Assembly (NCBI GenBank): GCA_902729315.2
Contig: LR746269.1
Location: 2,030,501-2,094,500, forward strand
DNA: 64,000 nucleotides
Direction: 5' to 3'
From: Spirodela intermedia
Taxonomy: Eukaryota; Streptophyta; Magnoliopsida; Alismatales; Araceae
Under the pieces are notes generated by a model. The model was not told where the DNA came from, ran no database searches, and saw only the letters and a list, made by a program, of their open reading frames with translations. Below, in pieces: positions 1 to 36,552 of the stretch. Numbering within the stretch: the stretch's first letter is position 1; each line of letters begins with the position of its first letter. The translations under genes and the position numbers were made by a program.

Positions 1-243
1 CCTTACCCCTCAAGAGGTCGAGGAAGACCGTCTGCCTCTTTTTCTGCGACGAAACCCGCGCCCCAGCCGGACGCATCGCCGCCTAGAGCGATGCCATTGA
101 ACTTCGCAGCATAACTTGGAGGTCACTGGGTTCGCTGATCAGATCTCCCTTTGTTCTGATCCCTTATTTCTCTGGGTAACTCTACGAAAACCTTCTCCAT
201 CTTGTTCGATCTCTGTTCTGGAGGACCTTTGAGGACGGCTTCT
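1..243 (+). pseudogene. PRS 5' fragment: end of exon 1, intron 1, start of exon 2
   Basis: This stretch matches the functional PRS gene from about 22523 to 22763 almost base for base. It covers the last part of exon 1, the whole first intron and the first bases of exon 2 (the codons for FEDGF). The similarity stops abruptly near 243, where unrelated sequence follows. A TAG at 84-86 replaces the Glu codon of the AAESD segment, and the exon 2 acceptor reads gag instead of cag. The intron is kept, so the copy arose by DNA duplication and not through an mRNA. It is a dead gene fragment, cut by the window edge on its left. Confidence 0.9.
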
Positions 244-1002: not shown

Positions 1003-1407
1003 ATGGATCTGACGGCGAAGCGGCGCGACGCTGCCGTCTTCCTCTCTCTCGTCTGTATCCTTCTGGCTTCTCCGGCGGCATCGATCTCCACAGCCTGGCC
1101 AGAGCAAGCGACCTACGAGAAGGTGCGCTCAGCGCTGGCGGAGGCCAGATTGAGGAGGGAAGCAGCCGAATTTTGGCCCGTGGATTGGTGGCTGTCAAAC
1201 AAGCAGCGTCGGCGTCGACCGCTGAGATCGCCGCCACCTCCACGTTCCAGAACGATAATCAATCAGAACAGACCGCCGGCTTTCATCCTCAGGTCTCCGC
1301 CGCCACCTAGAGCTCTGCCGCCGCCCCCACCTCCACCGCAGGTGCCGCTGCGTTCCCCCTCGGTCTCCGGTTACAGGAGACCTACGCCCCCTCGGCGCTT
1401 CAGGTAG
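1003..1407 (+). CDS. P1: putative secreted WPVDWW / Pro-Arg-rich peptide precursor
   Basis: Predicted protein of 134 aa from ATG 1003. Residues 11-27 form a hydrophobic stretch ending in ASPAAS, typical of a cleavable signal peptide. The segment EKVRSALA (40-47) is shared with P4. A basic site RLRRE (49-53) precedes the core EFWPVDWW (56-63), followed by SNKQRRRRPLRSPPPPR and a tail with further RSPPPPR and poly-Pro runs. This is the longest member, and its tail ends RRPTPPRRFR. I do not know the family. Conservation of the core among paralogues and the leader-propeptide-basic tail layout suggest a processed, secreted peptide. Antimicrobial, signalling or wall-protein roles are all only guesses. 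The codon context (GCC ATG G) supports this start over upstream non-ATG codons. Confidence 0.6.
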   Translation: MDLTAKRRDAAVFLSLVCILLASPAASISTAWPEQATYEKVRSALAEARLRREAAEFWPVDWWLSNKQRRRRPLRSPPPPRSRTIINQNRPPAFILRSPPPPRALPPPPPPPQVPLRSPSVSGYRRPTPPRRFR

Positions 1408-1439
1408 CGTCGAGGAATGGCACGAATGTAATCTCCTCG

Positions 1440-1885
1440 GGAAATAATTCCAAATTGGAAAAATCATAAGACTATTTTGCCAGCAAAACTTTACAGAGCA
1501 AGTATAAAAGGAGCTTGTTTTATTGCCGCAACATTATCAAACAACATTGCGGGCTCTCTTCACGGCTTCTTAGTCAACCAAAAGGGTCAGCCATAATCCT
1601 CAAAAAAAGAAACATACTTTAATTAATAAAGTGCCACGGATGAACTTTGGTCTAATCCCAGCTTCATCAATACCTTGGATTCCGCAGCTAGCCTGAGATA
1701 ACGAAACTTAAAAGTTGCAAGGTCACCATGTGAAACCTTATATGTTGACCAAATAAAAAACAGATAAAAATAAAAGTGGGTATTTTGAACTACGTCTTTG
1801 TTACGTACCCAATATGGATCTCCTTCAACGCCACAGATAGCATGAGGAAACTGTGATCTTTAGATATTCCCAGTTTTACCGTATA
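1440..1885 (+). repeat. Conserved 3' flank of the peptide-gene family (copy at P1)
   Basis: This region is related to those following P4 (about 9940-10371) and P5 (about 13485-13870), and in reverse to the region beyond P3 (6511-6870). Shared landmarks are the blocks around ggtcagccataatcctcaaa, cttcatcaataccttggattg, aaggtcaccatgtgaaac and tatggatctcctt. It may be the 3' untranslated region plus flanking DNA. No coding potential is evident. Confidence 0.7.
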
Positions 1886-2300
1886 ATTATGAATCTTTTT
1901 ATTTAAAGGTAAAATTAGCTAGACACCGTGCACCAAAGCAAAGCAAGGGACACCAGAGTGTAGTCGGTCATTTTCTTCTTGGCGTCCAGTATAGGTCTAG
2001 ACCGTCGACACAGTTATACATCTGTAGTGAAGGATGTTGCCATACTGATAACAAATGGCAGGAAGAGGTATCCCATCAGGTGCAGTGCACAACGGGGTGC
2101 TATCCCATCCGAGAGGGAAGTGACATTACTCTAAAATTTATTATTTTAATTTGAAAGCAATAGAAACATCTTCAGGTCAGTATACCATCTTCTTGGAAGA
2201 GTTGGAGCTCGGTCCGCTATATTTCTGTACAAGTTTCAATCTTAGGTGGGGCTCCCGGTCTGATGGGATCCAAGTGGTCAATCTTCTTCACATGTGGCTA
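1885..2300 (+). repeat. R block, copy 1 (dispersed repeat of the peptide cluster)
   Basis: About 420 bp repeated at 3347-3792 and 10372-10782. It starts near tgaatctttttatttaaagg and ends near gtggtcaatcttcttcaca. The paired W-box-like TTGACC motifs of the other two copies are lost in this one. From 2300 to about 3000 I see no recognisable feature. Confidence 0.7.
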
Positions 2301-3004
2301 GTCTACCTGTATTAATCTCTCCCCTTTTGTCCCTCAATCTACAATTTGCATGTCCAACCGATTTCTGTTGAGATATGATTTAATACCCCTGATGTTTTGG
2401 ATTGAAAATAGACCCAGTGGCCTCCTCTGTTGGGGATTACTTTTAACCCATATAAAGAGTCAAATGTGTTAAAAACTTATAACGAACCCTGTTTTTTCAA
2501 GAATGGAAAAATTTTACAATTCTTAGGTTCTACTTTCTGACATTCCCTGTTTATCCAGAAACCTCTCTCCCTTTTCTTTGTCCTATTTGATGTCTTATCT
2601 AATTGCTTTCAGGTGCTGGCATCCTGAAGCTATGTAGAGGCAATTGGTGGGGCAAAGGGAACAACGAGATGACATGCTAGTTGTTCTTAGATGCTAAACA
2701 GTAATAAGTGGTAGGCTATATCAGAGGTCAATAATATAATGGATTGAACACTTATTTACAAGCATAAGACAGCTACATACGAGTCGTATTGTTGTTGTAT
2801 ATGAGGTATCTACAATTTATCATTTTTTGGACACTTTTGAGACATTAACCGTTCCATATTTGAAGGATCTTACATGTCATATTGAGCAGATATTTGAGGC
2901 AAATTGTCCTTATTCTGAAGTAAATGATCTTTATTCATATTTTCACTTTGATTTCAGTCATATATTATTTGTGGCATTTATTTTCTGTTCCTTACAATAT
3001 CTTG

Positions 3005-3269
3005 ACCAAGTTTACAACACCCCGCTATTCTAACTGTAAGATGCCGCCCTCATCTTGCTTTGGCAGCTTAGTCCTGCCCTTCTCTTTCGATATCATCTAT
3101 TCCTCTACCCTCTCCTACTATCTATTGATTTCTTTACCCATTTCTGCTAGGAAAATATCCCCTCCTTCCAACTGCCTCCACTGATAATCTTCATCCCATC
3201 CTCCACTTCCTAGCTAGTAGAACTACCTCTCATACGCCATCTCCTACAGCTGCATCCTGTAACGCTTCC
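3005..3269 (+). repeat. Type II promoter/leader module, copy upstream of remnant P2'
   Basis: Pyrimidine-rich 265 bp block related to 3810-4096 (upstream of P2) and about 9300-9586 (upstream of P4). Shared pieces include ctgtaagatgccgcc-like, atccc-tccttccaact and ataa-cttcatccc segments. It ends directly at an ATG (3270) equivalent to the P2 start. It probably represents promoter plus 5' leader. Confidence 0.6.
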
Positions 3270-3296
3270 ATGGATATGGCAGTAACTCCCCTATAG
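3270..3296 (+). pseudogene. P2': deletion remnant of a peptide gene
   Basis: The start region ATG GAT ATG GCA GTA matches the P2 start (ATG GAT CTG GCA GTA), but after five codons the sequence jumps to cccctatagagcc. It then continues as the 3' flank seen after P1 and P4 (a gatagcatgag-like piece near 3303). The whole coding body is missing, so this is a paralogue lost by internal deletion. The residual reading frame encodes eight residues. Confidence 0.65.
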
Positions 3297-3346
3297 AGCC
3301 ATTGATAGAATGAGGAGAATGTGTATCTTAGACATTTATGTTTTAT

Positions 3347-3792
3347 GGCGTAGTTTTGAATCTTTTTATTTAAGAAATAAACTTTGCGAGACACCTTGCA
3401 TATATTCTGAGGGGATACCAAAGTGTACTCTATCAGGGTCTTTACGGAGACTAGCATGGGTTGACCAAACCATTGACCCATTTATATCTCTGATGTCAGT
3501 GATGATGTCATGGTGATAACAAATGGTTCGAATAGTTGACTTCGACTACAAGAAGCTACAACTTGTTCAATGCACAGCTTGCCGCCATGCCAACCGAGAC
3601 GGATGTGATATTATTGTTATAAATCATTGGATTAATTGGAAAGAGTGAAACATCTTTAGGTTAGTCCACAATCTTCTTCGAAGTCTTTGTATCCTGGTGA
3701 GTTATACCTTCGTTCGGGTTTTAGTCTTAGGTGCATCCCTGGCCAAATGGGAACCAAGTGGTCAATCTTCTTCACACCTGACTGGTCTACCT
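3347..3792 (+). repeat. R block, copy 2, with paired W-box motifs
   Basis: Same dispersed repeat as 1885-2300 and 10372-10782, here immediately upstream of the type II promoter of P2. Two TTGACC motifs lie at 3461-3466 and 3473-3478, a 12 bp step that is also kept in the copy at 10471-10488. TTGAC[C/T] is the established core bound by WRKY factors. Any role in P2 expression is inference. Confidence 0.65.
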
Positions 3793-3809
3793 TTTTCTCT
3801 TTTATTCCG

Positions 3810-4096
3810 CGTCTCATTCTTTGAATTTTATGTCCTGTTTCCTGTCTAGCAATTATAAGATCCTGTCCCCCGCCTCGTCCTGGCAGCTTCATCCTTTCTC
3901 TCTCCTTCAATATCATCTTCCCTCTTCCTTGCCTCTCCGAACTTGCTTGCTCCCCATCTCTCCCTGTCTTGCTAGGCCTTCCATTTCTTTACCTGTTGCT
4001 TCTGGGGAATATCCCTAACCTTCATCCCGTCTTGAACTTCTTGGTTGGCGGAACTCCCCTGCACCGTCTCATCCGACTGCGCCCTATTACGTTTCT
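3810..4096 (+). promoter_or_regulatory. Type II promoter/leader module of P2
   Basis: Pyrimidine-rich block homologous to 3005-3269 and about 9300-9586. It runs straight into the ATG of P2 at 4097. No sharp TATA box could be assigned. It differs from the type I module that precedes P1, P3 and P5, so the family uses two kinds of upstream region. Confidence 0.5.
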
Positions 4097-4582
4097 ATGG
4101 ATCTGGCAGTAAGGGTGCGTTCCGCCGCCGTCCTCCTTGCTCTCCTCCACATCCTCTTAGCTATGCCGGGCGGTCAGCATTCTGCCGCATGGGCCAAACT
4201 GGTGACCGATGAACGGCCGGAGTTAGCGTCGGCGTGGACAGGGCCAGGAGCTGAGACTGGGGCCCGAGCTTTTGTGGGAAAACCTCCCGTGATACGGCCG
4301 CCGTACACACAGTGCGCCCCCAATAGGCCTATTTACCAAGGGAGAGTCCACCGAGGAGGCCACCTCTTTACCACCAAGTGCGTTTGCTACTACTATGTTA
4401 TCCTCGATAATAAAATACTGTTGAAAATTACTGTTGAAAAGGGCAATGAAACAGCGTTTAACACTGACATGTCCTCCCCCATAATATGTATATGCCTTGT
4501 TCTCAAATGGATAACTGAATTTTTAGCCAAATTAATGACACTCATGTTTTCACATTGGGTAGAGATTTGTTTTCAAAATTAA
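4097..4582 (+). CDS. P2: putative secreted peptide precursor, divergent mature part
   Basis: Open frame of 161 codons from ATG 4097. Residues 1-25 (MDLAVRVRSAAVLLALLHIL plus following Leu/Ala) resemble the P1 leader, and the upstream module matches that of P4. The rest differs. There is no WPVDWW core; instead GKPPVIRPPYTQCAPNRPIY and a downstream GRVHRGG stretch appear around residues 61-87. After about residue 93 the frame runs into AT-rich DNA (about 4385 onward) that looks non-coding, so the true protein may end by splicing near 4375 (AA|gtgcgt) or be shorter than drawn. Function unknown. It looks like a family member with an exchanged or strongly diverged C-terminal part. Confidence 0.45.
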   Translation: MDLAVRVRSAAVLLALLHILLAMPGGQHSAAWAKLVTDERPELASAWTGPGAETGARAFVGKPPVIRPPYTQCAPNRPIYQGRVHRGGHLFTTKCVCYYYVILDNKILLKITVEKGNETAFNTDMSSPIICICLVLKWITEFLAKLMTLMFSHWVEICFQN

Positions 4583-5280
4583 TCTTATAATCTTTAAGTT
4601 AGCATTTTATCTCTAAAACTTGTGTGCAACATATATCTGTGATTTGATATTCAGATTAGCTATTAACAAAGCAATTGTAATTTTTTCTGAGATGTCTATA
4701 AAATGAGACATTGTCATAGACTTAAACATGACCCATTGGTAATTTTCTAACAATTAAATTTTCAGTGAAGTCAGAATCAATGTATTTTACTAAATTCATT
4801 CCACACTGCTTTAGAAACCAAATTCCAAAATCAGATAGAAATGTTCTGTATCGAAATATTTTTTTCACATTAGTTAAATGTGATTCCTCTGGATCACTTT
4901 AAATTCTAGTGTATAGGAATATGCTGAAAATTGTGTCGATTTTACTTGTAGTCAAATATAACACTTTTGTATTTGGATCTTAGATAAATTTTGATCTTAC
5001 CGTCTATGAGAATTTATTTTCTTTTACATCTGCATGATTATATGTCCTAAAATTATTTAGTATATTACGGTTAGAAATGAAGATTTCATATTCTAATTAC
5101 CATATTTGTATTCCTAAGGCATAACTAACTTCACCCATCATGATCTTCTAAATTATAAGAGTCATCCTTAAAATTATCATTTCCTTAAAATTTTCCAAGT
5201 TAGTATATTTTTCATTTTTATCTTTGATGAATGTTGGTCATATTGTCCATGATAGTTTTCTTTCCCTTTACACTTCCAAG
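4583..5280. other. AT-rich stretch without recognisable feature
   Basis: About 700 bp of AT-rich sequence between P2 and the copia remnant. I see no conserved frame, repeat copy or RNA gene here, and the 3' flank conserved after P1, P4 and P5 is absent. Confidence 0.6.
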
Positions 5281-6389
5281 TTATTACTTGATATATTGGC
5301 TGACGCCCTTGAGTCAATAATCCAAAAGGTTGGATTTGAGGCTGATAGAGTGATGGTACCTAAGGTGGAAGTCATGGCATGAATGGCCAGCATGACTCAT
5401 CGATGTAGCCTCCTTATGCTTCATCCAAGCATCATATTAGAGTTCTTGGATGACATCAAGTTAGACGTAATTTGGGTCCAATCATTGAGCTTGCCAAACT
5501 TATCCCATTAATTATCTGACTAGTGGTTAGTCTTCCCTCAATGATGGAGGAGTCATGGACAACCAGAGTGAAAGTAGCGGAGTTTGGCTAATGGACACAC
5601 ATACTTTGAAAAAGTCTCTAGAAGGGATGGTAGGAAGTTGGCAGCGGGTACTGACCCTGAATTTGAGAAGAAGTGAGAGTGGTGGACGATCATGAACAGT
5701 CACTGCCAACTCTTTACAGCATCTAACCTGTGTGACCAAATCAGTGGTGGAAGGTTATAGACCTTGAGATTGTCCATGAGAGAACTGAGCTTTGCATAAT
5801 AATCTTAGACTGTCATCTCGTCTTGCTTAAGTTTGAAGAGCTATTCATAGACTTCCACCATACAGTAGATATTCTTTTAGTTCTTATACATATACTCTAG
5901 AGTTTCTCAAACTTATTTATCCAGGATAATAAGAGGAAGTGCGCACGCAACGTAAGAGGTGATGCTCTTGAGAATCCAAAAAATGGTGGCCGAGTCTGTC
6001 ATATATTATTTATCATATTTGTCACTCCTCATCTCAGTAGAATTCTTAGTGAGAGATGACAGCCTCCCATGTGGCTGAAGAGAGTGCTTGAAGTTTGCCG
6101 CCCATGACATGTAGTTTGTCCCATAAAATACTTTCGAGGGACTATTAAGTTGTGCCCCAAGTGTGTTGTGTGATGTTGGTGCCGGTGTGCGCGCTGCTGT
6201 GGTGCACTACACGCGCATGCATGGCCACTGCGTAGCTACGGTTTTCTGTGTGTGGACAGCGGATGCGCTGTGTGAGGCACACACGCCTATGTGCCCCTTG
6301 GAGGAGACAGAGCCGGCGGGGGTGGTGGTTGCGCGAGGCCGGTGTGCCTTAGGAGGAGACAATCAGCCGGCGACCTGGCTTTGATACCA
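5280..6389 (-). mobile_element. Ty1/copia-type gag remnant with primer-binding site
   Basis: Read on the minus strand, the right end has a PBS complementary to initiator tRNA-Met (TGGTATCAAAGCC, 6376-6389) next to the LTR at 6390-6510. Further left come degraded gag-like frames with several stops. One resembles the usual plant gag segment (FKLKQDEMTV, a stop, then DYYAKLSSLMDNLKVYNLPP, around 5760-5840). The GC-rich part 6160-6375 lies just inside the PBS. No protease, integrase or RT was found, and no second LTR, so the element is truncated. Confidence 0.7.
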
Positions 6390-6510
6390 TGCGTAACGAT
6401 AGAGGCTATGAGTCACAGAGGAGGCCTCTACCATTTATATATAGGGAGAGGCCATACAAGAAAGAGAGATACAATAGGCCTGTTAGGCCAGTTGGGGCCC
6501 AATCACAACA
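6390..6510 (-). mobile_element. Short copia-type LTR (121 bp) at the edge of the inverted repeat
   Basis: On the minus strand this runs from TGTTGTGATTGGG (6510) to CGTTACGCA (6390), so it has TG...CA ends, and a tRNA-Met PBS follows immediately. A TATA-like tatatataa is present on the minus strand near 6440. Its outer end coincides with the point where similarity to the right arm of the inverted repeat stops. Confidence 0.7.
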
Positions 6511-6954
6511 TACCTCAAAGTAACGATATTTACTTTTCGAATTCTTCCATTTGGTCTAGAAAATAGTTTCACATGGTAACCTCACTAATTTGAAGTTCCA
6601 TTAAGTCCTCGGACTAACTTGGCCAATCCAAGGTGTTTCTGAAGTTGAGACTAAATGATAGTTCGTACATTGTATTTTATTAATTATACCATTTCTCCTT
6701 ATTTGAAGAATATGGCTGGCCCATTTTTGTTGACTGATAACTTGCAAAGAAAATCCACAATGTTCATAAACTTCCACAAAAAAAAAAGATCCTTTATGCT
6801 TTCTTTCATCATTTTTTTTGCTGAAAAAATAATCATATGATTTCTAATTCGCGCTTATTTTCCAAGGAGATCAGGTTCGTCCCAGTGTACGACGCTGCCC
6901 ATAACGCGGAGGGGTGGGGTCACCGGTAAACGGAGACGGAGATGGAACGCAGCG

Positions 6955-7194
6955 TCAGCTGCAACACGATGGCGGAGGTCTGATTCGATGAACTTGTGGT
7001 CTGCGTCTTGGAGCTGGCGGCGGTCTCAGTGGTCGACGCCGAAGCTGCTTGTTTGATTGCCACCAATCCACCGGCCAAAACTCGCCTCCTTCCCTCCTCA
7101 ACCTGTTTTCAGCCAGGACTGTGGAGACCGATGCCGCCGGAGAAGCCAGGAGGATGCAGAGCAGAGCGATGAGGATGCCAGCACAGTGCTTCAT
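6955..7194 (-). CDS. P3: putative secreted WPVDWW / Pro-Arg-rich peptide precursor
   Basis: Predicted protein of 79 aa from ATG 7194. An in-frame ATG at 7317 would add 41 residues, but those precede the signal-like segment and the ATG is missing in P1, so the shorter start is preferred. Residues 6-23 are hydrophobic (ILIALLCILLASPAASVS). RLRRE (31-35) precedes EFWPVDWW (38-45), then SNKQLRRRPLRPPPAPRRRP and a short tail ending PPPSCCS. Compared with P1 the tail is truncated by an early stop, and the sequence beyond it still resembles the P1 C-terminus out of frame. The EKVRSALA segment of P1 and P4 is absent. Function unknown; secretion is inferred from the leader. Confidence 0.6.
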   Translation of the reverse strand: MKHCAGILIALLCILLASPAASVSTVLAENRLRREGGEFWPVDWWQSNKQLRRRPLRPPPAPRRRPQVHRIRPPPSCCS

Positions 7195-7317
7195 GGCCGT
7201 CAGATCCTTGACGGAGAGGGAGTGACGTTGGTGGAGGGGGGAAGAAGTGCCGCTGGCATTGACAGCCGGGTAGCCGTATCTTATGGTTGGCGAGAGCCGT
7301 GGTTGGTAGAACGCCAT

Positions 7318-7445
7318 TGTTGACCGTAGATATCACATCCTTTTGTTGTTTTATAACCTATAGAAAATTATTTAACTGGAATAAGAATATATGGAACTCA
7401 TGTCAATAACGTCAACAAATTAGGACCCCCACGTCAATATTCTAC
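7318..7445 (-). promoter_or_regulatory. Type I promoter module of P3 with paired TGACG motifs
   Basis: Minus-strand TGACG motifs lie at 7410-7414 and 7432-7436 (seen as cgtca on the plus strand), mirrored at the P5 promoter. A ctataggttataaaa segment near 7351-7365 is the likely TATA region. Paired TGACG motifs about 20 bp apart are known as-1-type sites for TGA bZIP factors. Their function here is inferred. Confidence 0.5.
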
Positions 7446-8259
7446 AAAAAAAGTGCGGTAGGTAAAGCACGTGTGGACTCGTATCTTAGTCCAAGAGGAA
7501 GTCCTGATCGAACTGATAGGAACGTGGGGGGAGCCACCGAAACTGACTTCGATGAGTTTACATCCAATAAGTTTGAACCATAGTCTGTCTATGATATCCT
7601 TTATCAGCATGTTGGGTTTTCCATTTTCTAAAAGTGATTTTACCATTATGTCTTAAAGTATTGATAATTAGGGGTGCCAGTGAGAGGGTAGACAATGAGA
7701 AAGCCTGCTGCTCTTCACAGAAGAAAAATCACGCTGATGTTCGCTAGAATAAGGAGAAATACGCCGAAAGGAGGAGAATAACAGCGATAAATCTCTCATT
7801 TCAGTTAGAAAACTAGAAAAGAACGATATCGTATTGCACTTCCTTCGTCAAATCAAGGCTGAGAAGAAGAAGAAAAGATCGATGTGAAGGAGATCGCACG
7901 GAAAAGGTAAATATGAACGAGGAGAAGAAAGAGAAGCACGATCCATTTCATCTGCGCGGTTGCTCCTGATAGTCCCAACAAAAAGAAGAATGAAGAGGGA
8001 AGGAAGAGAAGCACAAAGAAGAGATAAAAGATGAGAACCATTCGTGTAGAGCTGGAGAGTCGGACAAATAAGAGGCAGGCTAAGAAGAAGACGATGTTAC
8101 AGCGTATGATGCTTTTTCGAAAGGCCTAAGGATGATTTATAATTGATAAATATGGCGCTACAGCACCGTAGAACAGTAGATCTGATTAGGTTCTGAATCA
8201 ACAGACAACAGGTAGGCCGTTTAAAGGCCGCTGATAGATCGGGAACAATAACGGAAGAA

Positions 8260-8517
8260 AAAGGGGGGGGGCGTCGGAGAAATTTATGAATTTCTCGTCT
8301 TCCTGAAACGCCCCATGCCCGCCATGGATTGAGCTCCCAGGCCACCAAACCAATCACGTTGAGGTTTACGCGGAGGGAGGCGAAGAAAAAGTCCGCTCAG
8401 AACGCCGCCAGTAACGTGGGACTTTGGCCACCTTCTACGGACTCTGCAGAGAATCCACTGAATGAGCATCGAGATGAGACGGAGGAAGACAGTCTGTAAT
8501 TGAGACTGACCCATGAT
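8260..8517 (-). repeat. Copy of PRS upstream region (left arm)
   Basis: Reverse complement of the block also present at 11817-12070. It is related to the true PRS upstream/5' leader at 21885-22180: shared pieces include gactgtcttcctccgtctc, tcgatgctcattcag, ggattctctgcag and ggcctgggagctca. The PRS coding exons themselves are not present in this arm. The G-box CACGTG of the real promoter reads AACGTG here. Confidence 0.8.
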
Positions 8518-8941
8518 TTTTCCATAGAAGAAGGTAATTTTTCATAATTCATTCAGGGTATTTTCCGTGTTCCATTTTTCGGTGAAGAAAAACATCTGTT
8601 CTTGTTCTTGGTAATCTGGTTTTGTTGGGGAGACGACGCTAATTGTGTGGGCTCCGTCGTTCAGCCTGTGGGGACGGCGGCAGGAACTGGGAAGGTCCAA
8701 CCTTGAAGCCAGCCGTGGCCGATCCCACTTACACGCCAGCCAGGTTCGAATTCTATTTATTTTTCAAACTGTTTCTCTCCTTCCTTCTCCGGTTTGCAAT
8801 ACAAACGTCGTGCATTTTCTCTCTGGTGTCTAGATTCTTGAAGGAGAAAATTAATAAACTTAAAACATTGGATAACATATAATTGCGCTACTAGAATGCT
8901 GAATTTTAACCTTAAACCCTTTATTACCGTCTTGCACTCCA

Positions 8942-9300
8942 GTTACCTCGTTGTGTACATTGCTCTCTACCTCTTCTTCTCCAACTATTTCCTTATTTTT
9001 TTTGCAGCATTTACTATCAAATCAACCAAAATCAAAATAGTAATATTTAATTTTAATTTTATTAATAATATTTTTTATATATTATAATTAATATTTAATT
9101 TTAATTTTACTAATAATAATTTATATATATTATAAGATGAATAAATAATAAATACATAATAACAAACTAATTGTTATCTAGCATATAGCATTAAATAAAT
9201 AATATAACAAATATATATATTAAAAAGTAAATCTTCTTCATACCTGTGGCCTATCTGCCTTTCTCGTCTGTTTCTCAACTACGACTTTTAAGTCCTACCG
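8942..9300. other. AT-rich spacer in the inverted-repeat loop
   Basis: Extremely AT-rich, with a short direct duplication: taatatttaattttaatttta near 9041 recurs near 9089. No gene is supported. It forms the first part of the 2448 bp loop (8942-11389). Confidence 0.6.
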
Positions 9301-9586
9301 CACCCCCCCTGTTCAGACTGTAAGATTCCCTCTCCCACCTCGTCCCGGCGACTTCATCCCATCCTTCCCCTTCGACGTGAGTCACTCCCTTTCTCGCCCC
9401 TAGTGACATAATTTCTTCCCGTCTCCCGCTATCTCAGTATCCCTTCATTTCTCTGGGATACAAATCCCCTCCTTACAACTTCCCCCGCTGATAACCTTCA
9501 TCCCGTCTTGCAGTTTCTTGGTCGGCTGAACTACCCTTCTCCCTCTCCTCTAGCTCCGCTTTCTATCCCCTAAGAATCTGGTGGCG
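9300..9586 (+). promoter_or_regulatory. Type II promoter/leader module of P4
   Basis: Pyrimidine-rich module homologous to 3005-3269 and 3810-4096. The position equivalent to the P2 start codon reads aagaatctg, so that ATG is lost and the first usable ATG is at 9587. Confidence 0.5.
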
Positions 9587-9889
9587 ATGCAGCGCGACGC
9601 CGGGATCCTCCTCACTCTCATCTGCATCCTCCTGGCTTCTCCGGCGGTATTGGTTTCCACAGCCGGACCCGAGCACGAGAAGGTGCGCTCAGCGCTGGCG
9701 GTGGTTAAACTGAGGGGGGAAGGGACCCCGATTTGGCCGGTGGATTGGTGGCACTCCGACAAACGGCGTGGGCGTCGACCGCGGAGAACGCCGCCAGCTC
9801 CTCGTTCCAGGCCGCCACTGAATAGCCGCGGATGGCGGCCTCGACGTCCGCCGCAGGTGCCGCCGTATTCCCCACCGGTTCCAGGTTGA
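9587..9889 (+). CDS. P4: putative secreted WPVDWW / Pro-Arg-rich peptide precursor
   Basis: Predicted protein of 100 aa from ATG 9587. Residues 6-24 are a hydrophobic leader (AGILLTLICILLASPAV and on). EKVRSALA (31-38) matches P1. The core IWPVDWW (49-55) is followed by HSDKRRGRRPRRTPPAPR and a tail ending PPYSPPVPG. The stop truncates the tail: the following bases would still encode a Pro-rich end like that of P1. It lies in the loop between the inverted-repeat arms and, unlike P1, P3 and P5, uses the type II upstream module. The most divergent flank of the core is before W50 (TPI instead of AEF or GEF). Function unknown. Confidence 0.6.
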   Translation: MQRDAGILLTLICILLASPAVLVSTAGPEHEKVRSALAVVKLRGEGTPIWPVDWWHSDKRRGRRPRRTPPAPRSRPPLNSRGWRPRRPPQVPPYSPPVPG

Positions 9890-9939
9890 GGGAAACCCCC
9901 GCCCCCTCCGCGATATCGGTGGCGACGTGGACTGGCACG

Positions 9940-10371
9940 AACCAGATATCGAAAATAAACCAAGAGTGGAAAATCATATGATTGTTTTGTCACCAAAAAT
10001 GTATAACATGAAGAATAAAGAAGCTTCCTTTATTGCGGCAAGTTTACCAACCTTGGGACTTTCTTCACTAGTTATCAGTAAACAAAAATGGTCAGTCATA
10101 GTGTTCTAAAAATGGGAAATACTATAATTCATAAAGTACCAAGTAAGAACTATCCAGCTTCATCAACACCTTGGATTGCGGGAGCTTGTCCAAGATCTTG
10201 AAGAAACTTCAAAATAGCGAGGTGACGATTTAAGAAAGACCTGATATTTGGAAAAATAGGTACTTTTTAACAAGTCGTAGTTACTTAGCCCTACAGATCT
10301 CCAAAAAAACGATTGATAGCATGAGAAAAGATATGCATTTTAGACACTCCTGTTCTAAGGTGCAATGTTGA
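9940..10371 (+). repeat. Conserved 3' flank of the family (copy at P4)
   Basis: Related to the 3' flanks of P1 and P5: blocks around tggtcagtcatagtgttctaaa, cttcatcaacaccttggattg and aaatcatatgattgttttg. It continues directly into the R block. No coding potential seen. Confidence 0.65.
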
Positions 10372-10782
10372 ATCTTCTTATTTAAAGGTAAAATTTGCGA
10401 GACAACGTTCACTAACTTAACGGAGGGGACACCAAAGCGCACTCGGTCGTCCCTGTGGGATCCGCCCTGGTTGACCCAACCGTTGACCCATTTTTATATA
10501 TATCAAGTCAGTGATGGCGTCATACAAATTGTAGTGAGAGCTGACTTGGACTACAAGAAACCATAGCTGGTGCAGTGCATAGCGGGGGCTCTATGCCATC
10601 AGAGAGGGATGGGATATCTTTATTATATCTGTTTACCTGAAAAGACCCAAATCATCTTCAGCCCAGTCTAAAATTTTCTTAGAAGCCTTTGTAGCGTGGT
10701 CTATACCTTAGTAGGCGGGTCCGCGTTAGGTGCGGCCTCGGTCTAATCGAAACCGAGTGGTCAATCTTCTTCATACGTAAGT
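10372..10782 (+). repeat. R block, copy 3, with paired W-box motifs
   Basis: Third copy of the dispersed block. TTGACC motifs at 10471-10476 and 10483-10488 keep the 12 bp spacing of copy 2. It is followed not by a type II promoter but by an imperfect CT tract (about 10788-10845). Confidence 0.65.
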
Positions 10783-10787
10783 GGTCT

Positions 10788-11389
10788 CCCTCCCTCCCTC
10801 TCTCGCTCTCTCACTCTCTCTTTCTCTCTCTCTCTCTCTTTCTCTGGCTCCCGCTCACTATTACTATATTTTTTTTATGACGTTTTAACAACTGAACACT
10901 ATCCATCAACCTCAACGCGTCGACGAGTTTACAACCTGACCTAAGATGAGATCGCCTTGGTGGCAACGCGAGAACCTTTAATCCAGGCCAACATCCCGTG
11001 ATACCACGTAGACAAAGTCATACTGAGTTGGTGAGTCAGAAAATGCTGGGTATTACAAGAGAGATGCCAATCATAAAGTTAATCTAATCTGATGATGGTA
11101 TATAGCAAATGTAATGGGATCAACAGTAGACATGATGGTGAATAGGTGGAAAGTAAGTCAGCATCGAAGCAAACTTTCATGATTTTTTTCTCAACTGCCG
11201 ATCTTAATCTAATACGCTGATTTCAGCTACAGTGCTCACAGCTCCTCGAGTTGTATGATGCAGCTGTACCTACAAATGAATGTACAACAATTATTGCCAT
11301 TCGAGGGCATGATGCTTGAACTACTGAAGGTGGATTATTCTTCTATTTTTTCGTATCAATGTACTAATTGATAGTTAACTATACTAACG
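10788..11389. other. CT tract and unassigned rest of the loop
   Basis: An imperfect (CT)n tract to about 10845 is followed by unassigned DNA. One stretch at 11226-11325 follows a good acceptor (tgatttcag) and is open as LQCSQLLELYDAAVPTNECT and onward to GHDA before a stop. It may be an exon fragment of an unknown gene, but nothing else supports that. Confidence 0.35.
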
Positions 11390-11816
11390 TGGAGTGCAAG
11401 ACGGTAATAAAGGGTTTAAGGTTAAAATTCAGCATTCTAGTTGCGCAATTATAAGTTATCCAATGTTTTAAGCTTATTAATTTTCTCCTTCAAGAATCTA
11501 GACACCAGAGAGAAAATGCACGACGTTTGTATTGCAAACCGGAGAAGGAAGGAGAGAAACAGTTTGAAAAATAAATAGAATTCGAACCTGGCTGGCGTGT
11601 AAGTGGGATCGGCCACGGCTGGCTTCAAGGTTGGACCTTCCCAGTTCCTGCCGCCGTCCCCACAGGCTGAACGACGGAGTCCACACAATTAGCGTCGTCT
11701 TCCCAACAAAACCAGATTACCAAGAACAAGAACAGATGTTTTTCTTCACCGAAAAATGGAGCACGGAAAATACCCCGAATGAATTATGAACAATTACCTT
11801 CTTCTATGGAAAAATC

Positions 11817-12070
11817 ATGGGTCAGTCTCAATTACAGACTGTCTTCCTCCGTCTCATCTCGATGCTCATTCAGTGGATTCTCTGCAGAGTCCGTAGAAGG
11901 TGGCCAAAGTCCCACGTTACTGGCGGCGTTCTGAGCGGACTTTTTCTTCGCCTCCCTCCGCGTAAACCTCAACGTGAGTGGTTTGGTGGCCTGGGAGCTC
12001 AATCCATGGCGGGCATGGGGCGTTTCAGGAAGACGAGAAATTCATAAATTTCTCCGACGTCCCCCCCCCC
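11817..12070 (+). repeat. Copy of PRS upstream region (right arm)
   Basis: Same block as 8260-8517, in the orientation of the true PRS gene, and related to 21885-22180. It ends in a poly-C run where the PRS coding exon would begin about 100 bp later. The downstream sequence here is unrelated to PRS. Confidence 0.8.
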
Positions 12071-12900
12071 CTTTTTCTTCGGTTATTGTTCCCGATCTAT
12101 CAGCGGCCTTTAAACGGCCTACCTGTTGTCTCTTGATTCAGAACCTAATCAGATCTACTGTTCTACGGTGCTGTATCGCCATATCTATCAATTATAAATC
12201 ATCCTTAGGCCTTTCGAAAAAGCATCATACGCTGTAACATCGTCTTCTTCTTAGCCTGCTTCTTATTTGTCCGACTCTCCAGCTCTACGCGAATGGTTCT
12301 CATCTTTATCTCTTCTTTGTGCTTCTCTTCCTTCCCTCTTCATTCTTCTTTTTGTTGGGACTATCAGGAGCAACCGCGCAGATGAAATGGATCGTACTTC
12401 TCTTTCTTGTCCTCGTTCATATTTACCTTTTCCGTGCGATCTCCTTCACATCGATCTTTTCTTCTTCTTCTCAGCCTTGATTTGACGAAGGAAGTGCAAT
12501 ACGATATCGTTCTTTTCTAGTTTTCAAAATGAAATGAGAGATTTATCGCTGTTATTCTCCTCCTTTCGGCGTATTTCTCCTTTTTCTAGCGAACATCAGC
12601 GTGTTTTTTCTTCTGTGAAGAGCAGCAGGCTTTCTCATTGCCTACACTCTCACTGGCACACCTACTATCAATACCTTAAGACATAATGGTAAAATCACTT
12701 TTAGAAAATGGAAAACCCAACATGCTGGTAAAGGATATCATAAACTGACTACGGTTGAAACTTATTCGATGTAGACTCATCGAAGTCAGTTTTCGGTGCC
12801 CCCCCTCCCCCCAACGTTTGAAACGTGTATCAGTTCGACCAGGACTTCCTCTTTGACTAAGATACGAGTCCACACGTGCTTTACCTACCGCACTTTTTTT

Positions 12901-13028
12901 GTAGAATATTGACGTGGGGTTCCTAATTTGTTGACGTTATTGACATGAGCAGCATATCTTCTTATTCCAGTTAAATAATTTTCTATAGGTTATTAAAAAA
13001 CAAAAGGATGTGATATCTACGGTCAACA
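12901..13028 (+). promoter_or_regulatory. Type I promoter module of P5 with paired TGACG motifs
   Basis: TGACG at 12910-12914 and 12932-12936, plus TTGACA right after (about 12939), mirrored in P3. A ctataggttatta segment near 12982-12994 is the likely TATA region. The module sits about 100-180 bp ahead of the candidate start codons. Confidence 0.5.
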
Positions 13029-13086
13029 ATGGCGTTCCACCAACCACGGCTCTCGCCAACCATAAGATACGGCTACCCGGCTGTCA

Positions 13087-13482
13087 ATGCCAGCAGCACT
13101 TCTTGGCCCTCCTTCACCTACGTCACTCCCTCTCCGTCAAGGATCTGGCGGCCATGAGCAGTGCGCTGGCATTCTCATCGCTCTCCTCTGTATCCTCCTG
13201 GCTTCTACGGCGGCATCGGTCTCCACAGTCCTGGCTGAAAACAGATTGAGGAGGGAAGGAGGCGAGTTTTGGCCGGTGGATTGGTGGCAATCCAACAAGC
13301 AGCTTCGGCGTCGACCACTGAGACCGCCGCCACCTCCACGACCTGGCCACCAGTTCATCGAATCAGACCGCCGCCATCTGGACCTTGCCGCCGCTGACGC
13401 TGCGTTCCATCTCCGTCCCCGTTTACGGGCTACCCCACCCCCTCCGCGTTATGGGCAGCGTCGTGCACTGGGACGAACCTGA
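13087..13482 (+). CDS. P5: WPVDWW peptide gene with frameshifted start region
   Basis: Inverted-repeat partner of P3. The ATG equivalent to the P3 start (13154) is out of frame here because one base is missing in atgagcagtgcg compared with atgaagcactgtg. The core can still be translated from ATG 13087, giving 131 aa with a 25-residue extension before the hydrophobic segment (about residues 27-46). RLRRE (53-57) and EFWPVDWW (60-67) are intact, followed by SNKQLRRRPLRPPPPPRPGH. After that the frame departs from the family tail. Signal-peptide function with such an extension is doubtful, so this may be a recent pseudogene or a gene with a changed N-terminus. Confidence 0.45.
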   Translation: MPAALLGPPSPTSLPLRQGSGGHEQCAGILIALLCILLASTAASVSTVLAENRLRREGGEFWPVDWWQSNKQLRRRPLRPPPPPRPGHQFIESDRRHLDLAAADAAFHLRPRLRATPPPPRYGQRRALGRT

Positions 13483-13484
13483 TC

Positions 13485-13870
13485 TCCTTTAGAAATCATA
13501 TGATTATTTTTCCAGAAAAAATTGATGAAAGAAAGCATGAAGGATCTTCTTCTTTTGTGGAAGTTTATGAACATTGTGGATTTACTTTGCAAGTTATCAT
13601 TCAACAAAAATGGGCCAGCCATAATCTTCAAATAAGGAGAAATGGTATAATTAATAAAATACAATGTACAAACTATCTTATAATCTCAGCTTCAACAACA
13701 CCTTGGATTGCACAGGTTCGTCTGAGAACTTAATGGAACTTAAAATTAGTGAGGTCACCATGTGAAACTGTTTTCTGGACCAAATCGAATAACTAGGAAA
13801 TAAATATGGGTACTATAAAGCACGTAAGTTGCCTCTCGTATGGATCTCCTTGAAATCCATTTGTTAGCAT
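13485..13870 (+). repeat. Conserved 3' flank of the family (copy at P5)
   Basis: Matches the 3' flanks of P1 and P4, and the mirrored left arm to 6511. Landmarks are aaatcatatgattattttt, gggccagccataatcttcaa, aacaccttggattgc, aggtcaccatgtgaaac and tatggatctccttg. From about 13870 to 14294 I see no recognisable feature. Confidence 0.65.
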
Positions 13871-14299: not shown

Positions 14300-17200
14300 T
14301 GATGTATCCCAAGACATAAGTTGAAGTCTCAACTTCAAATTTGAGCCATAATTTAAAAAGTACTGAAAAAGAAGTCCACATGTGTCACTAGTGGGTTAGA
14401 AGTCCGAAAAGTAATATTTATTTTTACTTTATGTCCTTTCACTTCTAGAGGGTACTTTATGTCTCTTTTCTTCTAGAATAGACTTTAATGTGGTTCAGTC
14501 TATATCTAAAGTTTGTTCAAGATCTCTGACTGTCATAGTTAAGTATAAATTCTCAATTTTACACCTAGATAACATGTTAAATGTGTTATGTGATTCTAAA
14601 ATTTTCTCAAAAGTTGATTTAAAGAACATATATCATTAGATCTGAATTTGGCCAAGAGATGAATAGAAGACTGCCTTTCAAATTAAGACAAGTTTTTATG
14701 AATTGTTGGTCAAGCCTTTTGGCTTATCAAACTCCCCCAATACCTTTATGAGAGTGATGAATCAGGTTCTGAAATCTTTTATTAGTAATTTTTTTATTGT
14801 TTATTTTAATGACATTCTTATTTATAGTACTATGGAAGAATAACACATGAAACATCTCATATTAGTATTTAAAGTGTTACGACATAATAAACTATACATT
14901 AATTATATATTTATTTCATGACTACTAATTTGTTATTCTTGGGATATGTTGTAAGTGCAGATAAAATCAAAGTAGATGAAGAAAAGATTAAAACTATCAA
15001 AGATTAGTTAGCACTAATCACAACTCATCAAGTTAAAAGCTTTCATGGGTTGACATCATTTTATAGAAGATTCATCTAAAATTTTAGCTCAATAATGTCT
15101 ATAGTTATTGAATGTATATATATAAAAAAATTTAAATCAATTGATGAAGCTAGTAGAAGTTTTACCATGATAAAAGAGAAATTATGTTCTAGTTCTATTT
15201 TCACCTTACCAAATTTCAATAAACTATTTGAAGTGAAATGTGATGCATCCATAGTTGGCATTGGAGGTGTATTGTCGCAAAAAGGTTGGGCAATAGTATT
15301 TTTTAGTGAAAAACTTTCCGATATAAGAAAAAAATGAACAACAAATGAACTAGAATTTTCTGTCGTGATTTGTACTTTATAAACATATGAACACTATTTG
15401 ATTCAATGAGAGTTTATTTTATATATTGATCATTAGGCTCTTAAATCAGACTTCTATAATAGAATACATGTCAAATAGATTTCTTTCATTCAACGTTTTT
15501 CTTTCATTATTAAACACAAGTCAAGGAAATTAAATCGAGTTGCAAATATTCTTAGTATAAAAACAACATGTTTGGTGAACCTGCGTGCGGAGATCACATG
15601 ATTTGATTATTTCAAGAAATTATACCCAAATGACAATAATTTTTCTCAATAATATATGATCTAATATGTCTGAAATATCAACTAAATATTTTCACCTACA
15701 TGATGGTTTTTTATTTTGAGGAACACAATTATGTATTCCTTGCAGCTCTTTAAGGGAGAAACTACTACGAAAATTACACTCTTTAGATTTAGTAGGACAC
15801 CTTGGTCGAGACAAAACCTTATAGTCAATTGAAGAGCAATATTATTAGCCCAAATTGAACAAAATGTAGAGAAATTTATTTGTAAATGTCACATTTGTCA
15901 AACCTACAAGAGACAAAGTAAAAATATTAGACTATACACTCCATTGTTTATTCTATAATGTCTATGGGCTGATATTTCTATGGACTTTATATTAGGCCTA
16001 CCACGAACACAAAATAGAGCTGACTCAATTTTCATGGTCATTGATAGATTTTTAAAAATGGCATACTTCATTGCATGTAAAAAGACAAATAATGCAAGTC
16101 AAGTAGTCAATCACTTCTTTAAATAAATTATTCGTCTACATGAAATTTCTAAGTCAATTACCTTTGACAGCGATTCTAAGTTTATATCTCACTTCTAGTG
16201 AACTCTTTGGAAAAGGCTTGACACATTTTTAAAATTTAGTAATACTAGTCACTCACAAATTGATGGCCCAATTGAAATTGTGAATAGAACTCTTGACAAT
16301 TTGATTTGTTGTATTTAAGGAGAAAATTCAAAACAATAGAATTATGCTTTGGCTCAAACAAAGTTTGTTTATAATTTGATGATTAATCATTCGACTAACC
16401 AATCTATATTTTCAATGGTATATTATTTTCCTCCAATAATTTCATTTGATCTATTACAAGTACCAAGATCAGTTGGAACTAATATTATTGCAAACAATAT
16501 GGTAGATCATATCAAAACGCTTCATAAAGATGTGATACACAATATTATAATAAATTCTGAGAAATATAAAATAGCAACAGATAAAAAAAGAAGAAAGAAG
16601 ATATTTGAAGTTGGAGACAAAGTGATGATGTACTTTCGTAAAAAATGATTCCCAACAAGTAACTACAATAAGTTAAAGCTAAAGAAAAATAGACTATATC
16701 AAGTTCTACAGAAGATCAATGACAATGCATATCTCATTGAGCTCCCACCAAATATGATCATTTCACCCACATTCAATGTTAGTGACATATGAGTACTACG
16801 ACGATTCAAATGAAGACTTGGGGTCAAGTTTTCTTAAAGAAGGAGAGATTGATGTAGCCCAAGATATAAGTTGAAGTTTCAACTTTGAATTTGGACCCAC
16901 TGATCTTAAATTTGGGTCATAATTTAGAAGTGCTAAAAAAGGAGCCCACATATGTCTCTATTAGGTTGGAAGTCTGAAAAGTAATATTTATTTTCTACTT
17001 TATGTCCTTTCACTTTTAGATGGTACTATATGTCTCTTTCCTTCTAAAAAAGACTTTAATATTATTCAATCTATACCTAAGATCTATTCAAGATCTCTAA
17101 CTAATAGAGTTTGTACTTAATCTGTTTAGTATATCAACCTATTAGAGTCTATTTTAGGTCCTTTTAGAGTTAATTAGAGTATTTTTAGAGGATATGACTA

Positions 17201-22204: not shown

Positions 22205-25141
22205 ATGGCGGCGGCTCTCTCTTGTCGGATCCCTCTTCCGCAACCAGGTTCCACCCTCCAACGCAGAGCCCCGGCGGCGCTTTCCGGCCAGTCCTTGCTT
22301 CTGCTTCCTAGGCAGCGGGAGGATGGGCGGGAGAGCGCCCCTGGGACTCGCCGGATCCGCGGGGAGCTGGCGAGCGGGATTGGGTTCTCGTCCGAGAAGG
22401 ATAGCGCCGCCCATCACCTCCGGATTTTTCCGTCCTCGTCGTCGTCCTCTTCCTCTGACACTCACTTGGCGGTTTCTTCCTCTTTGAGCCCCGCCGTTGC
22501 ACCGTCTGTGGCCTTCTCCTTGCCCCCGAAGAGGTCGAGGAAGACCGTCTGCCTCTTCTTCTGCGAGGAAACACGTGCCCTAGCCGAACGCGTCGCTGCC
22601 GAGAGCGATGCCATTGAACTTCGCAGCATCAATTGGAGGTCGCTGGATTCGCTGAGCAGATCTTCCTTTCTTCTGATTCCTTTTTCTTTCTGTGTGATTC
22701 TAGTAATACTTTCTCCGCCTTGTTCGATTTCTGTTCCGCAGGACCTTTGAGGACGGCTTCCCCAACCTGTTCATCCCCAACGGCCAGGGAATACGGGGCC
22801 AACACGTCGCCTTCTTGGCATCCTTCAGCTCGCCTCGAGTAATCTTCGAGCAACTCTCCGTCATCTACGCGCTGCCCAGGTTGTTCATCTCCTCCTTCAC
22901 CGTCGTCCTCCCCTTCTTCCCCACCGGCACCTCGGAGAGGATGGAGGAGGAGGGCGACGTTGCCACCGCATTCACACTGGCAAGGATTCTCTCCAGCATA
23001 CCCATCTCCAGGGGCGGACCGACCAGCCTCGTCATCTACGACATCCATGCCCTCCAGGTTCTTCACTTGGAGTTCATTTCCATTGGTGTTACTGCATGTA
23101 AGGTCGAGTATCCTCTGACTTCTTTGCTCTGCGGCTCTATCGTCCTCTTCAGGAGAGATTCTATTTTGGGGATAACGTGCTGCCATGCTTCGAGAGTGGA
23201 GTGCCTCTACTCATGAACAGGCTTCAAGAGCTTCCGGATTCAGACAATGTAGGTTCTCTAGAACCCGGCAACGATCGAACTCTTCCTTTAGCATAAATTT
23301 CTCTGTCCGGAGGTAAAAACCCGATGAGATTGCTTCACTCTGTATCTCAGTCTACTCCTAAGGAGCATGGTGCGAGTTTCTTCCAATTATAACTAGAAAT
23401 GGTTTGCTAGACCCGTGCCTCATTCGTGAATCTGCCATCTCCAGATATCGATAGCTTTCCCAGATGATGGTGCATGGAAGAGATTCAATACACTGCTGCA
23501 GCATTTCCCAACAGTACTGTCCATAGCTGAGCACTGCTTCATTCAGAGCCATTATTCCCCTCTCGCTGTGCAAATTTTACTCAGAGTGAATCAGGAACTT
23601 GCAGATTATTTGCACAAAGGTTCGGGAAGGAGATCAGAGGATCGTACGTCTCAAGGAGGGAGATCCCAGAGGTCGTCATGTTGTTATAGTTGACGATCTA
23701 GTACAATCCGGTGGTACGCTGATCGAGTGTCAGGTACCCTAATATCCTTTTTTGGAAATGTCTCCAAAGCTCACCGACCTCTGCATTAAGTGAAGAACAC
23801 TGCTGCCATGTTCAGAAAAAAAACACGATATGAATCCAGTTTTCAAGGCAGTGTAATGAGGCTCATGTGGCCGTTGTTTTTCAGTGGGCTTCTTCCAACT
23901 TGAGAGTTTGAGCTGTTCTAAGACTGTCTCTAACGTTTCAGAAAGTATTGGCTGCTCATGGGGCTAAGAAAATCAGCGCTTATGTGACACATGGAATCTT
24001 CCCTAACAGGTCATGGGAACGGTTTCAGCATGACAACGGAGGTAACAGCCTCTTCAAGTGGATAATTTTGGTCTAGCCCATTCTGTAGTGTAGAAATGTC
24101 CATATTCATGAATTTCTCTCAACTGATTTAATAATTGGACTTGTAAAATAACATTCTTCTTATGATTATGCATATGTTATGCTCTTATAAACCGAGTATG
24201 TTGGTTTTTTCTCATTCTGCTTAGTTCATTTTTAATTTTTTTTTTACTGTAAAAGAAAAACTTTTTTCATGTACTAACATTTTGAGTTAAAATTTTATGA
24301 GATTTTTTTTTACCGAAAATTTTAGTCATATTTTCTCAGCCTAAGTCATCCTCTACTAATGATAGATATATGAGGTGATATGACTTCAAGGGATTATTAT
24401 TAACTTGATATAAATGGAAATTTGCTGTGTTGGTAAGGATTAAGCATAATGGCTCACTAAAGTGGTTACATTTAGTATCAGTTTTGCTCACTGAGAAGGA
24501 TTTTCCAATTGAGAGTAGGGCAGTGGAGATCTTGTGAAGAAATTTCTTCTCTTCAGCTTTGTATTCAGGGATTTTAAAAAAACAAATCACAGATCCTTTT
24601 ATTTCAATTATTGACGTTTATTATAATCTTGAACCCTCTCATTCAGGGATATCTTGCTTCTAACAAATTAGCTTACATAATTAAGTTTTTTTCTTATTTC
24701 CACTATTTTTTTGTTAGGTTATTATTAGTGCTTCATTTTACCCACTTGGAAAGATAATCAAACAGTAAAACAAAATATATATATATATATATTTAATTCC
24801 CGGAAAAAGAGAAACCTGATTTTCAGCCATTTATGGGCTTCTTATCCAGTCGGGCAGAGCCCATAGTTTTCTTCCACACTTGAATGTTGTTCATGTAAAA
24901 ACAGATAGTTCTCAGATATCATTCACCACCCAATCAAATCTTTTCAGGCGTTAACAACTTCTTGATGCACTCGGTTTAACCAACCCCCTTCTGTTTCTTG
25001 TTGCCAGTTGGCCCAAATGAGGGCCTGAGCTTCTTCTGGATAACGGACTCCTGCCCGCTCACAGTGAAGGAGGTGAAGAACAAGCGGCCCTTCGAAGTCC
25101 TCAGCCTTGCTGGCTCCATCGCCGCTGCACTGCAGATTTAG
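22205..25141 (+). CDS. PRS3: Ribose-phosphate pyrophosphokinase, class II (PRS3-like)
   Basis: Makes phosphoribosyl pyrophosphate from ribose 5-phosphate and ATP for nucleotide, His and Trp synthesis. Seven exons: 22205-22638, 22742-23057, 23153-23248, 23445-23513, 23605-23733, 23942-24041, 25008-25141. All introns are GT-AG and the frame stays open, giving 425 aa. The first ~110 residues are Ser/Arg/Ala-rich ([14 protein letters not shown] and on), consistent with an organelle transit peptide. Then come [76 protein letters not shown], the PRPP loop [16 protein letters not shown] and the C-terminus [16 protein letters not shown]. The long N-terminus and SIAAALQ ending favour the PRS3 type over cytosolic PRS4; this choice is less certain than the family. 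It ends 300 bp from the stop of MKK3, which is transcribed towards it. An aataaa lies near 25276. Confidence 0.93.
24775..24792. repeat. (AT)n microsatellite in PRS intron 6
   Basis: Pure AT dinucleotide run within the last and longest intron of PRS. Confidence 0.85.
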
Positions 25142-33700: not shown

Positions 33701-33819
33701 TATACGATTTCATTTATGATTTGTTTATTTGTAACCTTTTAAAAAGTTTCCTTTCCTAATCCCTCGTCCTATTATTCTTTTCATGCCTTTCCCGATCAAT
33801 TTTACGTAGACAATATTGG

Positions 33820-33936
33820 CATCTCTCTCTCTCTCCCTCTCCCTCTCCCTCCCCTTCTCTCTCTCTCTCTTCTCTCTCTCTTCTCTCTCTCTCTCTCTCT
33901 CTCTCTGCTCCCCGATGTAGAGAGAGAGAGAGAGAG
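33820..33936. repeat. (CT)n tract followed by (GA)n tract
   Basis: Polypyrimidine run to about 33906, then gctccccgatgt, then (GA) at 33919-33936. The adjacent complementary dinucleotide tracts could form a hairpin with a ~12 base loop. Confidence 0.85.
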
Positions 33937-34403: not shown

Positions 34404-34405
<2 letters not shown>

Positions 34406-34449
<44 letters not shown>

Positions 34450-34518
34450 TAACTTACATTTGACAGAAGTTGGGTGCTATGTTACAAGTACCAAGTTCCT
34501 AACTGATAAGTCCAAGAT

Positions 34519-34556
<38 letters not shown>
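34406..34556. repeat. Two (TA)n microsatellites
   Basis: TA dinucleotide runs at 34406-34443 and 34524-34556, separated by about 80 bp of ordinary sequence. The surrounding 34080-35040 has no recognisable gene. Confidence 0.9.
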
Positions 34557-34559
<3 letters not shown>

Positions 34560-36210: not shown

Positions 36211-36211
36211 T

Positions 36212-36465: not shown

Positions 36466-36552
<87 letters not shown>

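Follow-up and report, generated by a model that had tools for sequence, protein, structure and literature searches.

The window analysed here, a stretch of 64,000 nucleotides (nt) from the duckweed Spirodela intermedia (C6:2030501-2094500 of a genome of 136.5 Mb in 32 contigs; contig C6 is presumably chromosome Si06), carries near its left end a cluster of open reading frames (ORFs) that encode the hexamer WPVDWW. The hexamer is encoded at window positions 1174 (+), 7077 (-), 9734 (+), and 13270 (+), and at all four a hydrophobic leader lies ahead of it, with x-S-x-K and then RRP-x-R-x-PP-x-PR coming after it. An earlier interpretation made from the letters and ORFs alone, hereafter the sequence-only reading, had reported this arrangement in P1, P3, P4, and P5, and each of the four sites was confirmed. 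The ORFs of the cluster, with lengths in amino acids (aa), are as follows:

1003..1407, + strand: P1, WPVDWW-type gene, 134 aa, with the homologous ATG at 1003, the core at 1174-1191 and a full-length Pro/Arg tail
4097..4582, + strand: P2, P2-type (B-type) paralogue, a 161-aa ORF with a related leader and an AW..-type segment, without the WPVDWW core
6955..7194, - strand: P3, WPVDWW-type gene, 79 aa, core at 7060-7077
9587..9889, + strand: P4, WPVDWW-type gene, 100 aa, core at 9734-9751
13087..13482, + strand: P5, WPVDWW-type ORF, 131 aa, core at 13270-13287, an upstream ATG being used

The cluster had been said to run from 1003 to 13482; its start stands, being the homologous ATG of P1 (a further in-frame ATG lies at 946), but the array reaches ~73 kb beyond the left edge of the window. 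The motif is not a product of chance, since a degenerate 18-mer, TGGCCNGTNGAYTGGTGG, has seven matches in the 136.5-Mb genome and its reversed-pattern control has none; six of the seven fall within one 21-kb stretch, C6:2022636-2043787, and the seventh lies at 7.08 Mb.

Whole-genome protein searches and local tblastn place the array at C6:1957852-2043949, with its right end in the window, and count 14 WPVDWW-type and 8 P2-type copies in it (26 tblastn rows were sorted by hand, and four of them, Pro-rich or antisense, were left out). Outside the array, ~5 Mb away at 7.07 and 7.08 Mb, lie two relics, both decayed and broken. The claim that the hexamer is identical in all four copies holds within the window but not across the array: WPVDWW is found in 6 of the 14 copies, all at the array's right end, and the other eight, none of them in the window, have WPMDWW, WCLDQW, WSSDRW, WPVDSW, WSMDWC, WPADWW, SPADWW, and WLVGWW. 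The 18 bases of the hexamer are the same in P3, P4, and P5, and P1 differs from them by one silent base; as the copies form one tandem family, identity by descent is expected. In nine of the 14 copies the sequence from a start to the end of the core is intact; eight of these encode proteins of 79-134 aa, while in the ninth (C6:2027259) the frame continues to 227 codons.

The copies differ in how much of the ORF they retain. P1 aligns without gaps over 1023-1422 with a copy at C6:2002112, and this copy (2002112-2002510) shares the whole P1 tail in frame (NQNRPPAF .. YRR.P.PP). P3 has a 13-codon in-frame deletion in the pro-region and a shortened tail; P4 has a 3-codon in-frame deletion, and a stop ends its tail ahead of the PPPPPRYR-like stretch. 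The comparison suggests that an ancestral full-length form, with a GYRRPPPPPRYR-like ending, is best approximated by P1, the 2002112 copy, and the copy at 2022468. P5 is probably an altered or dead copy, since in comparison with P3 it has lost 1 nt directly behind the ATG used there, so that its ancestral ATG (13154-13156) is out of frame and its 131-aa ORF relies on the upstream ATG at 13087.

The history of the array is one of local duplication, as the following features of the window illustrate:

6534..8941, strand not assigned: left arm of an inverted duplication, in which P3 lies (base-by-base comparison)
11390..13800, strand not assigned: right arm of the same inverted duplication, in which P5 lies (base-by-base comparison)
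1410..2309, + strand: 3' flank of the unit, ~900 bases, repeated whole or in part beside many array copies at ~65-76% identity
1..242, + strand: truncated 5' duplicate of a ribose-phosphate pyrophosphokinase-like gene, adjoining P1, 85.6% identical to 22518-22760

As the arms of the inverted duplication are 90-98% complementary, depending on the segment, P3 and P5 are hardly independent; moreover, their mismatch over leader, core, and RRP, 6.5%, lies within the 1.6-9.4% of the surrounding segments, which, for this pair, contradicts the earlier statement that the flanks diverge strongly around an invariant core. In a genome search, the 3' flank recurs at array copies and at the 7.07- and 7.08-Mb relics and nowhere else among the matches listed, and thus indicates local duplication and not a dispersed element. 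The copies carry two unlike upstream regions, and the upstream flank is, among the matches listed, confined to the array with the exception of one 46-base match on contig C17. These distributions bear on the idea that the units are transposable-element fragments spread as repeats. The repetition itself would fit such an origin, as would a reverse-transcriptase RNase H retroelement fragment directly to the right of the array (15095-15334, +) and very weak hAT-dimerisation matches of the ORFs of P3 and P5, at E 0.17 and 0.53 and with scores about half of the cut-off; however, no transposon domain reached the Pfam cut-off in the five ORFs scanned, and with flanks so confined among the matches listed we rejected a transposon origin, which we consider extremely unlikely.

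The duplication process appears to have captured the 5' end of a neighbouring pyrophosphokinase-like gene, since window positions 1-242 and smaller pieces in both arms (8261-8489 in the P3 arm and 11842-12067 in the P5 arm) are copies of it. The duplicate beside P1 spans C6:2029894-2030742 in full, and the gene itself has a Pribosyltran_N match at 22707-23213, slightly below the Pfam cut-off.

That the WPVDWW-type ORFs are plant coding genes, as the sequence-only reading had assumed, is supported by the maintenance of their frame. In frame 0, all 12 near-complete copies are free of stops over codons 6-67, in comparison with three of 12 in frame 2, where the consensus is also open, and none of 12 in frame 1. 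Under neutrality a mean of 5.9 open copies is expected, and all 12 were open in 0.28% of cases (P = 0.0028), given 5,000 simulations from the consensus on a midpoint-rooted Hasegawa–Kishino–Yano (HKY) tree, without rate variation and with indels ignored, and given copies that were found by protein similarity, which biases toward frame 0. Within codons 1-76, indels between intact copies have lengths divisible by three (39, 9, and 6 nt); those of broken copies are 8 nt (A1968) and 1 nt (P5), plus an in-frame 21 nt (A1972). We rejected a non-coding or frame-2 reading, as frame 2 has stops in 9 of the 12 blocks of codons 6-67; it seemed constrained in codons 68-76 (the ratio of nonsynonymous to synonymous differences per site, pN/pS, being 0.48), but the ratio rises to 0.92 over codons 68-133.

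Divergence within the unit is lowest in the portion of the ORF that follows the signal. In a DNA alignment of ten copies, identity is 0.70-0.85 over 993-1232 and mostly 0.4-0.7 outside, the upstream values partly reflecting unrelated DNA of the two upstream classes; between P1 and the 2002112 copy, which share an upstream class, mismatch is 5-18% in 40-base windows over 1063-1302 and 15-38% downstream. Such a block might also be a non-coding regulatory or RNA sequence of the duplicated unit in which the ORF is incidental, and the recurrence of the 3' flank and near-equal differences at the three codon positions over 76 codons agree with this. Both the avoidance of stops and the constraint on residues 31-67 described below are, however, specific to frame 0, and we hold the incidental explanation to be very improbable.

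Our main codon tests used 76 alignable codons of the nine intact copies. Purifying selection acts on residues 31-67: the maximum-likelihood (ML) ratio of nonsynonymous to synonymous rates, omega, is 0.43, with twice the log-likelihood difference from omega = 1 (2dL) at 12.9, and pN/pS is 0.47 in frame vs. 0.94 and 0.90 in the shifted frames. The result survives Bonferroni correction by eight (uncorrected p ~0.0003, chi-square, one degree of freedom). Within the segment, omega is 0.49 for residues 31-57 (2dL 7.1) and 0.28 for the ten codons 58-67 (2dL 6.9), and WPVDWW is merely its end. The hexamer had been singled out as a specially constrained element, and this was not supported: eight of the 14 copies depart from it, significance is reached by residues 31-67 as a unit, and its own test, of low power with six codons and few silent sites, is not significant (omega 0.39, 2dL 1.4). 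Whether dN/dS near the core lies close to 1, a question that the sequence-only reading had raised, thus has two answers: over codons 58-67 it does not, but over all 76 codons it does. The nine codons of the basic stretch, 68-76, gave omega 7.1 and 2dL 10.2; we do not rely on diversifying selection there, the region being short, chosen post hoc, and gapped in two copies. For regions 1-57, 58-67, and 68-76, omega comes from runs that built their own trees and 2dL from one fixed tree; kappa under the null was taken from a grid, and the 2dL values may be slightly high. A model without a transition/transversion term gave 2dL 4.9 over the 76 codons, and we prefer the weaker result obtained with the term.

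Several results weigh against a family maintained by selection. Over the 76 codons, pooled dN/dS is 0.80 by the Nei–Gojobori method (NG86) and ML omega is 0.82, with a 2dL of only 1.5, and pN/pS in frame (0.82) hardly departs from that in the shifted frames (0.89 and 0.88); the three codon positions differ about equally over the same length. Residues 1-30, the signal segment, have omega 1.16 (2dL 0.3) and residues 1-57 omega ~0.75 (2dL 2.7). The tail contains frame-changing indels, and its codons 68-133 show no clear protection in 11 copies, pN/pS being 1.25 in frame 0, 0.81 in frame 1, and 0.92 in frame 2. At the start of the ORF (1023-1062), where P1 and the 2002112 copy show 30% mismatch, conservation does not exceed that of the flank, and in a five-copy set the contrast is less even (26% at 1143-1182). 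The regions were picked after the alignment had been seen, and eight overlapping partitions were tested. Finally, 5 of the 14 array copies (P5, A1961, A1968, A1972, and A2008) are broken at start, frame, or core. Together with both 7-Mb relics, the disrupted tails, the in-frame stops in five of the eight P2-type copies, and an overall omega not distinguishable from 1, these broken copies could belong to a once-functional family that now evolves almost neutrally, with its open frames left over from recent duplication. The opening of frame 0 in every near-complete copy, improbable under neutrality, and the constraint on residues 31-67 in that frame only are at odds with such decay, and we judge it rather unlikely. 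The array is a genuine, young, and partly decaying gene family that probably encodes small secreted proteins.

The existing annotation also counts against a maintained family. Profile and single-sequence protein searches retrieved only four S. intermedia gene models, P0001-P0004 (NCBI/UniRef, uncharacterised), and P2 had no relatives in the protein database search; these searches covered candidates of similar length, one of them scoring the 7,987 candidates that shared most words, and plant proteomes were perhaps thinly covered. The models belong to the same family and have four mutually inconsistent structures: P0003 matches the first 62 residues of P1 exactly and then continues with a frame-2 reading of P5 DNA ~12 kb away, and P0004 moves to frame 2 after residue 40, which, if its DNA is like that of P1, needs a ~35-base intron (window 1123-1157), implausibly short for a plant. 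In the genome paper, nine reference annotations, among them that of S. polyrhiza, served for homology-based gene prediction in S. intermedia, and neither "RNA-seq" nor "transcriptom" occurs in its main text (PMC7645714). As a homology-based pipeline transfers reference genes, a similar gene probably exists in at least one reference, such as S. polyrhiza. Orthologues in related genomes had been proposed as a check; protein searches found no relative beyond S. intermedia, with plant coverage possibly poor.

No family with this core had been known to the sequence-only reading, and none was found in Pfam, NCBIfam, or PDB, nor any named relative. Nothing credible was found in the three databases, with no PDB relative and no profile match at a curated cut-off; the weak matches other than hAT, in one or two members each, were to DUF7096 (E 0.076) and BimA_second (E 0.0049). 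A literature text search did not find the string WPVDWW, and in titles and abstract openings the duckweed and Spirodela literature on secreted or antimicrobial peptides does not name the family; no paper was found on Spirodela orphan genes or on small secreted proline-rich proteins of duckweed, and a wider search on plants brought up a single paper, on insects.

In all ten copies computed, a hydrophobic leader is present, as the sequence-only reading had it, with a hydropathy of 2.1-3.1 (Kyte–Doolittle, 15-residue window), and the tail has a charge of +7 to +17 and 15-40% Pro; between them lies the constrained segment of ~37 residues, with the consensus AWPEHATYEKVRSALAEARLRREGAEFWPVDWWxSDK. 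The proposed order of leader, propeptide, and basic, Pro-rich end does resemble a precursor, but processing into a short core peptide is doubtful, because the dibasic RR before the core (residues 51-52) is found in only five of the nine intact copies. A peptide hormone precursor would nevertheless have some appeal: a receptor would perceive a short product, centred on EGAEFWPVDWWxSDK and excised from between LRR and the basic cluster. P1 and P3 do have basic pairs on both sides of the core, and omega is 0.28 over codons 58-67. In addition to the patchy upstream RR, the constraint covers residues 31-57, mostly outside such a peptide, and none of ten sequences matches the patterns tried for CLE, CEP, PIP, IDA, PSK, RALF, or DY-type sulfated peptides; a prohormone seems to us distinctly unlikely.

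We infer secretion, processing, and function for the WPVDWW-type proteins as follows. The protein would enter the secretory pathway through its N-terminal hydrophobic signal segment, which may be removed near ..VST|AW.., and the product would be released to the cell wall or the surrounding water. There, the constrained segment may mediate a specific interaction, and the fast-changing cationic Pro/Arg tail, only loosely specified, could serve for binding to membranes, cell wall, or microbes. Given the turnover of the cluster and the cationic tails, defence would be the likeliest use. With this mechanism included, we lean, by a small measure, toward a Spirodela family that encodes small secreted-type proteins and has grown on chromosome 6 through local duplications, both tandem and inverted. 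The sequences are best read as a birth-and-death family of small secreted proteins that is taxon-restricted and possibly serves in defence. More specifically, and only tentatively, it may constitute a class of secreted proteins specific to Spirodela, for defence or signalling, which is defined by a constrained 37-residue AWPEH..TYEKV..LAE..RR..WPVDWWxSDK segment beside a Pro/Arg tail that diversifies freely, and whose members arise and disappear within one cluster on chromosome 6.

Farther to the right in the window, a protein kinase domain exon lies at 28423-28758 (-), with an ORF without a Pfam match nearby (25445-26035, -); the two resemble a plant MKK3-type mitogen-activated protein kinase kinase, the match being to the kinase domain only. 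The long ORFs at 33700-36650 consist mostly of Ser/Leu or Arg/Glu repeats and apparently are translated (AG)n/(CT)n simple repeats, which the genome paper describes as relatively abundant in S. intermedia (PMC7645714).

Whatever its function, the array is a compact natural experiment in birth-and-death evolution, in which intact copies neighbour start-less and frame-shifted ones. Should the proteins be produced, a new named family would be established; otherwise, the array cautions against taking a hexamer conserved in a few local duplicates for a functional core. Duckweeds are described as being without the immune regulator EDS1 (PMC9828482), and lineage-specific secreted peptides are therefore natural candidates for defence.

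Comparison with known systems shows partial resemblances. Hydroxyproline-rich systemins and extensin-like proteins are similarly secreted-type plant proteins, and some copies have SPPP runs; unlike them, the duckweed proteins are basic and not Ser/Tyr-rich, and SPPP (in three of the nine intact copies) and PPS/PPT (in four of nine) have no common places. Cysteine-rich antimicrobial peptides (defensin, miAMP1, and snakin) have several conserved Cys in the mature part, and the sole Cys common to the ten sequences (residue 17-18) is within the signal segment. Apidaecin, Bac7, and PR-39 share with our proteins a leader and a cationic Pro/Arg stretch; in these animal peptides, the Pro/Arg part is the active product, whereas the duckweed tail is without purifying selection. 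PROSCOOP genes cluster and diverge rapidly, and SCOOP has a conserved SxS motif in a C-terminal peptide. In the duckweed family, the constrained segment and core are without SxS: the motif is absent from 4 of the 10 sequences, in five of the other six it falls within the signal segment (residue 26-27), and in the sixth at 185, P1 having it also at 118 and 120; the constrained part directly follows the signal and has a Trp-rich end. The likeness lies elsewhere, as PROSCOOP/SCOOP of the Brassicaceae is likewise reported to be a clade-restricted family of predicted secreted precursors (PMC6382344, PMC9784617), and in this company the WPVDWW-type proteins look like an orphan family of a familiar kind.

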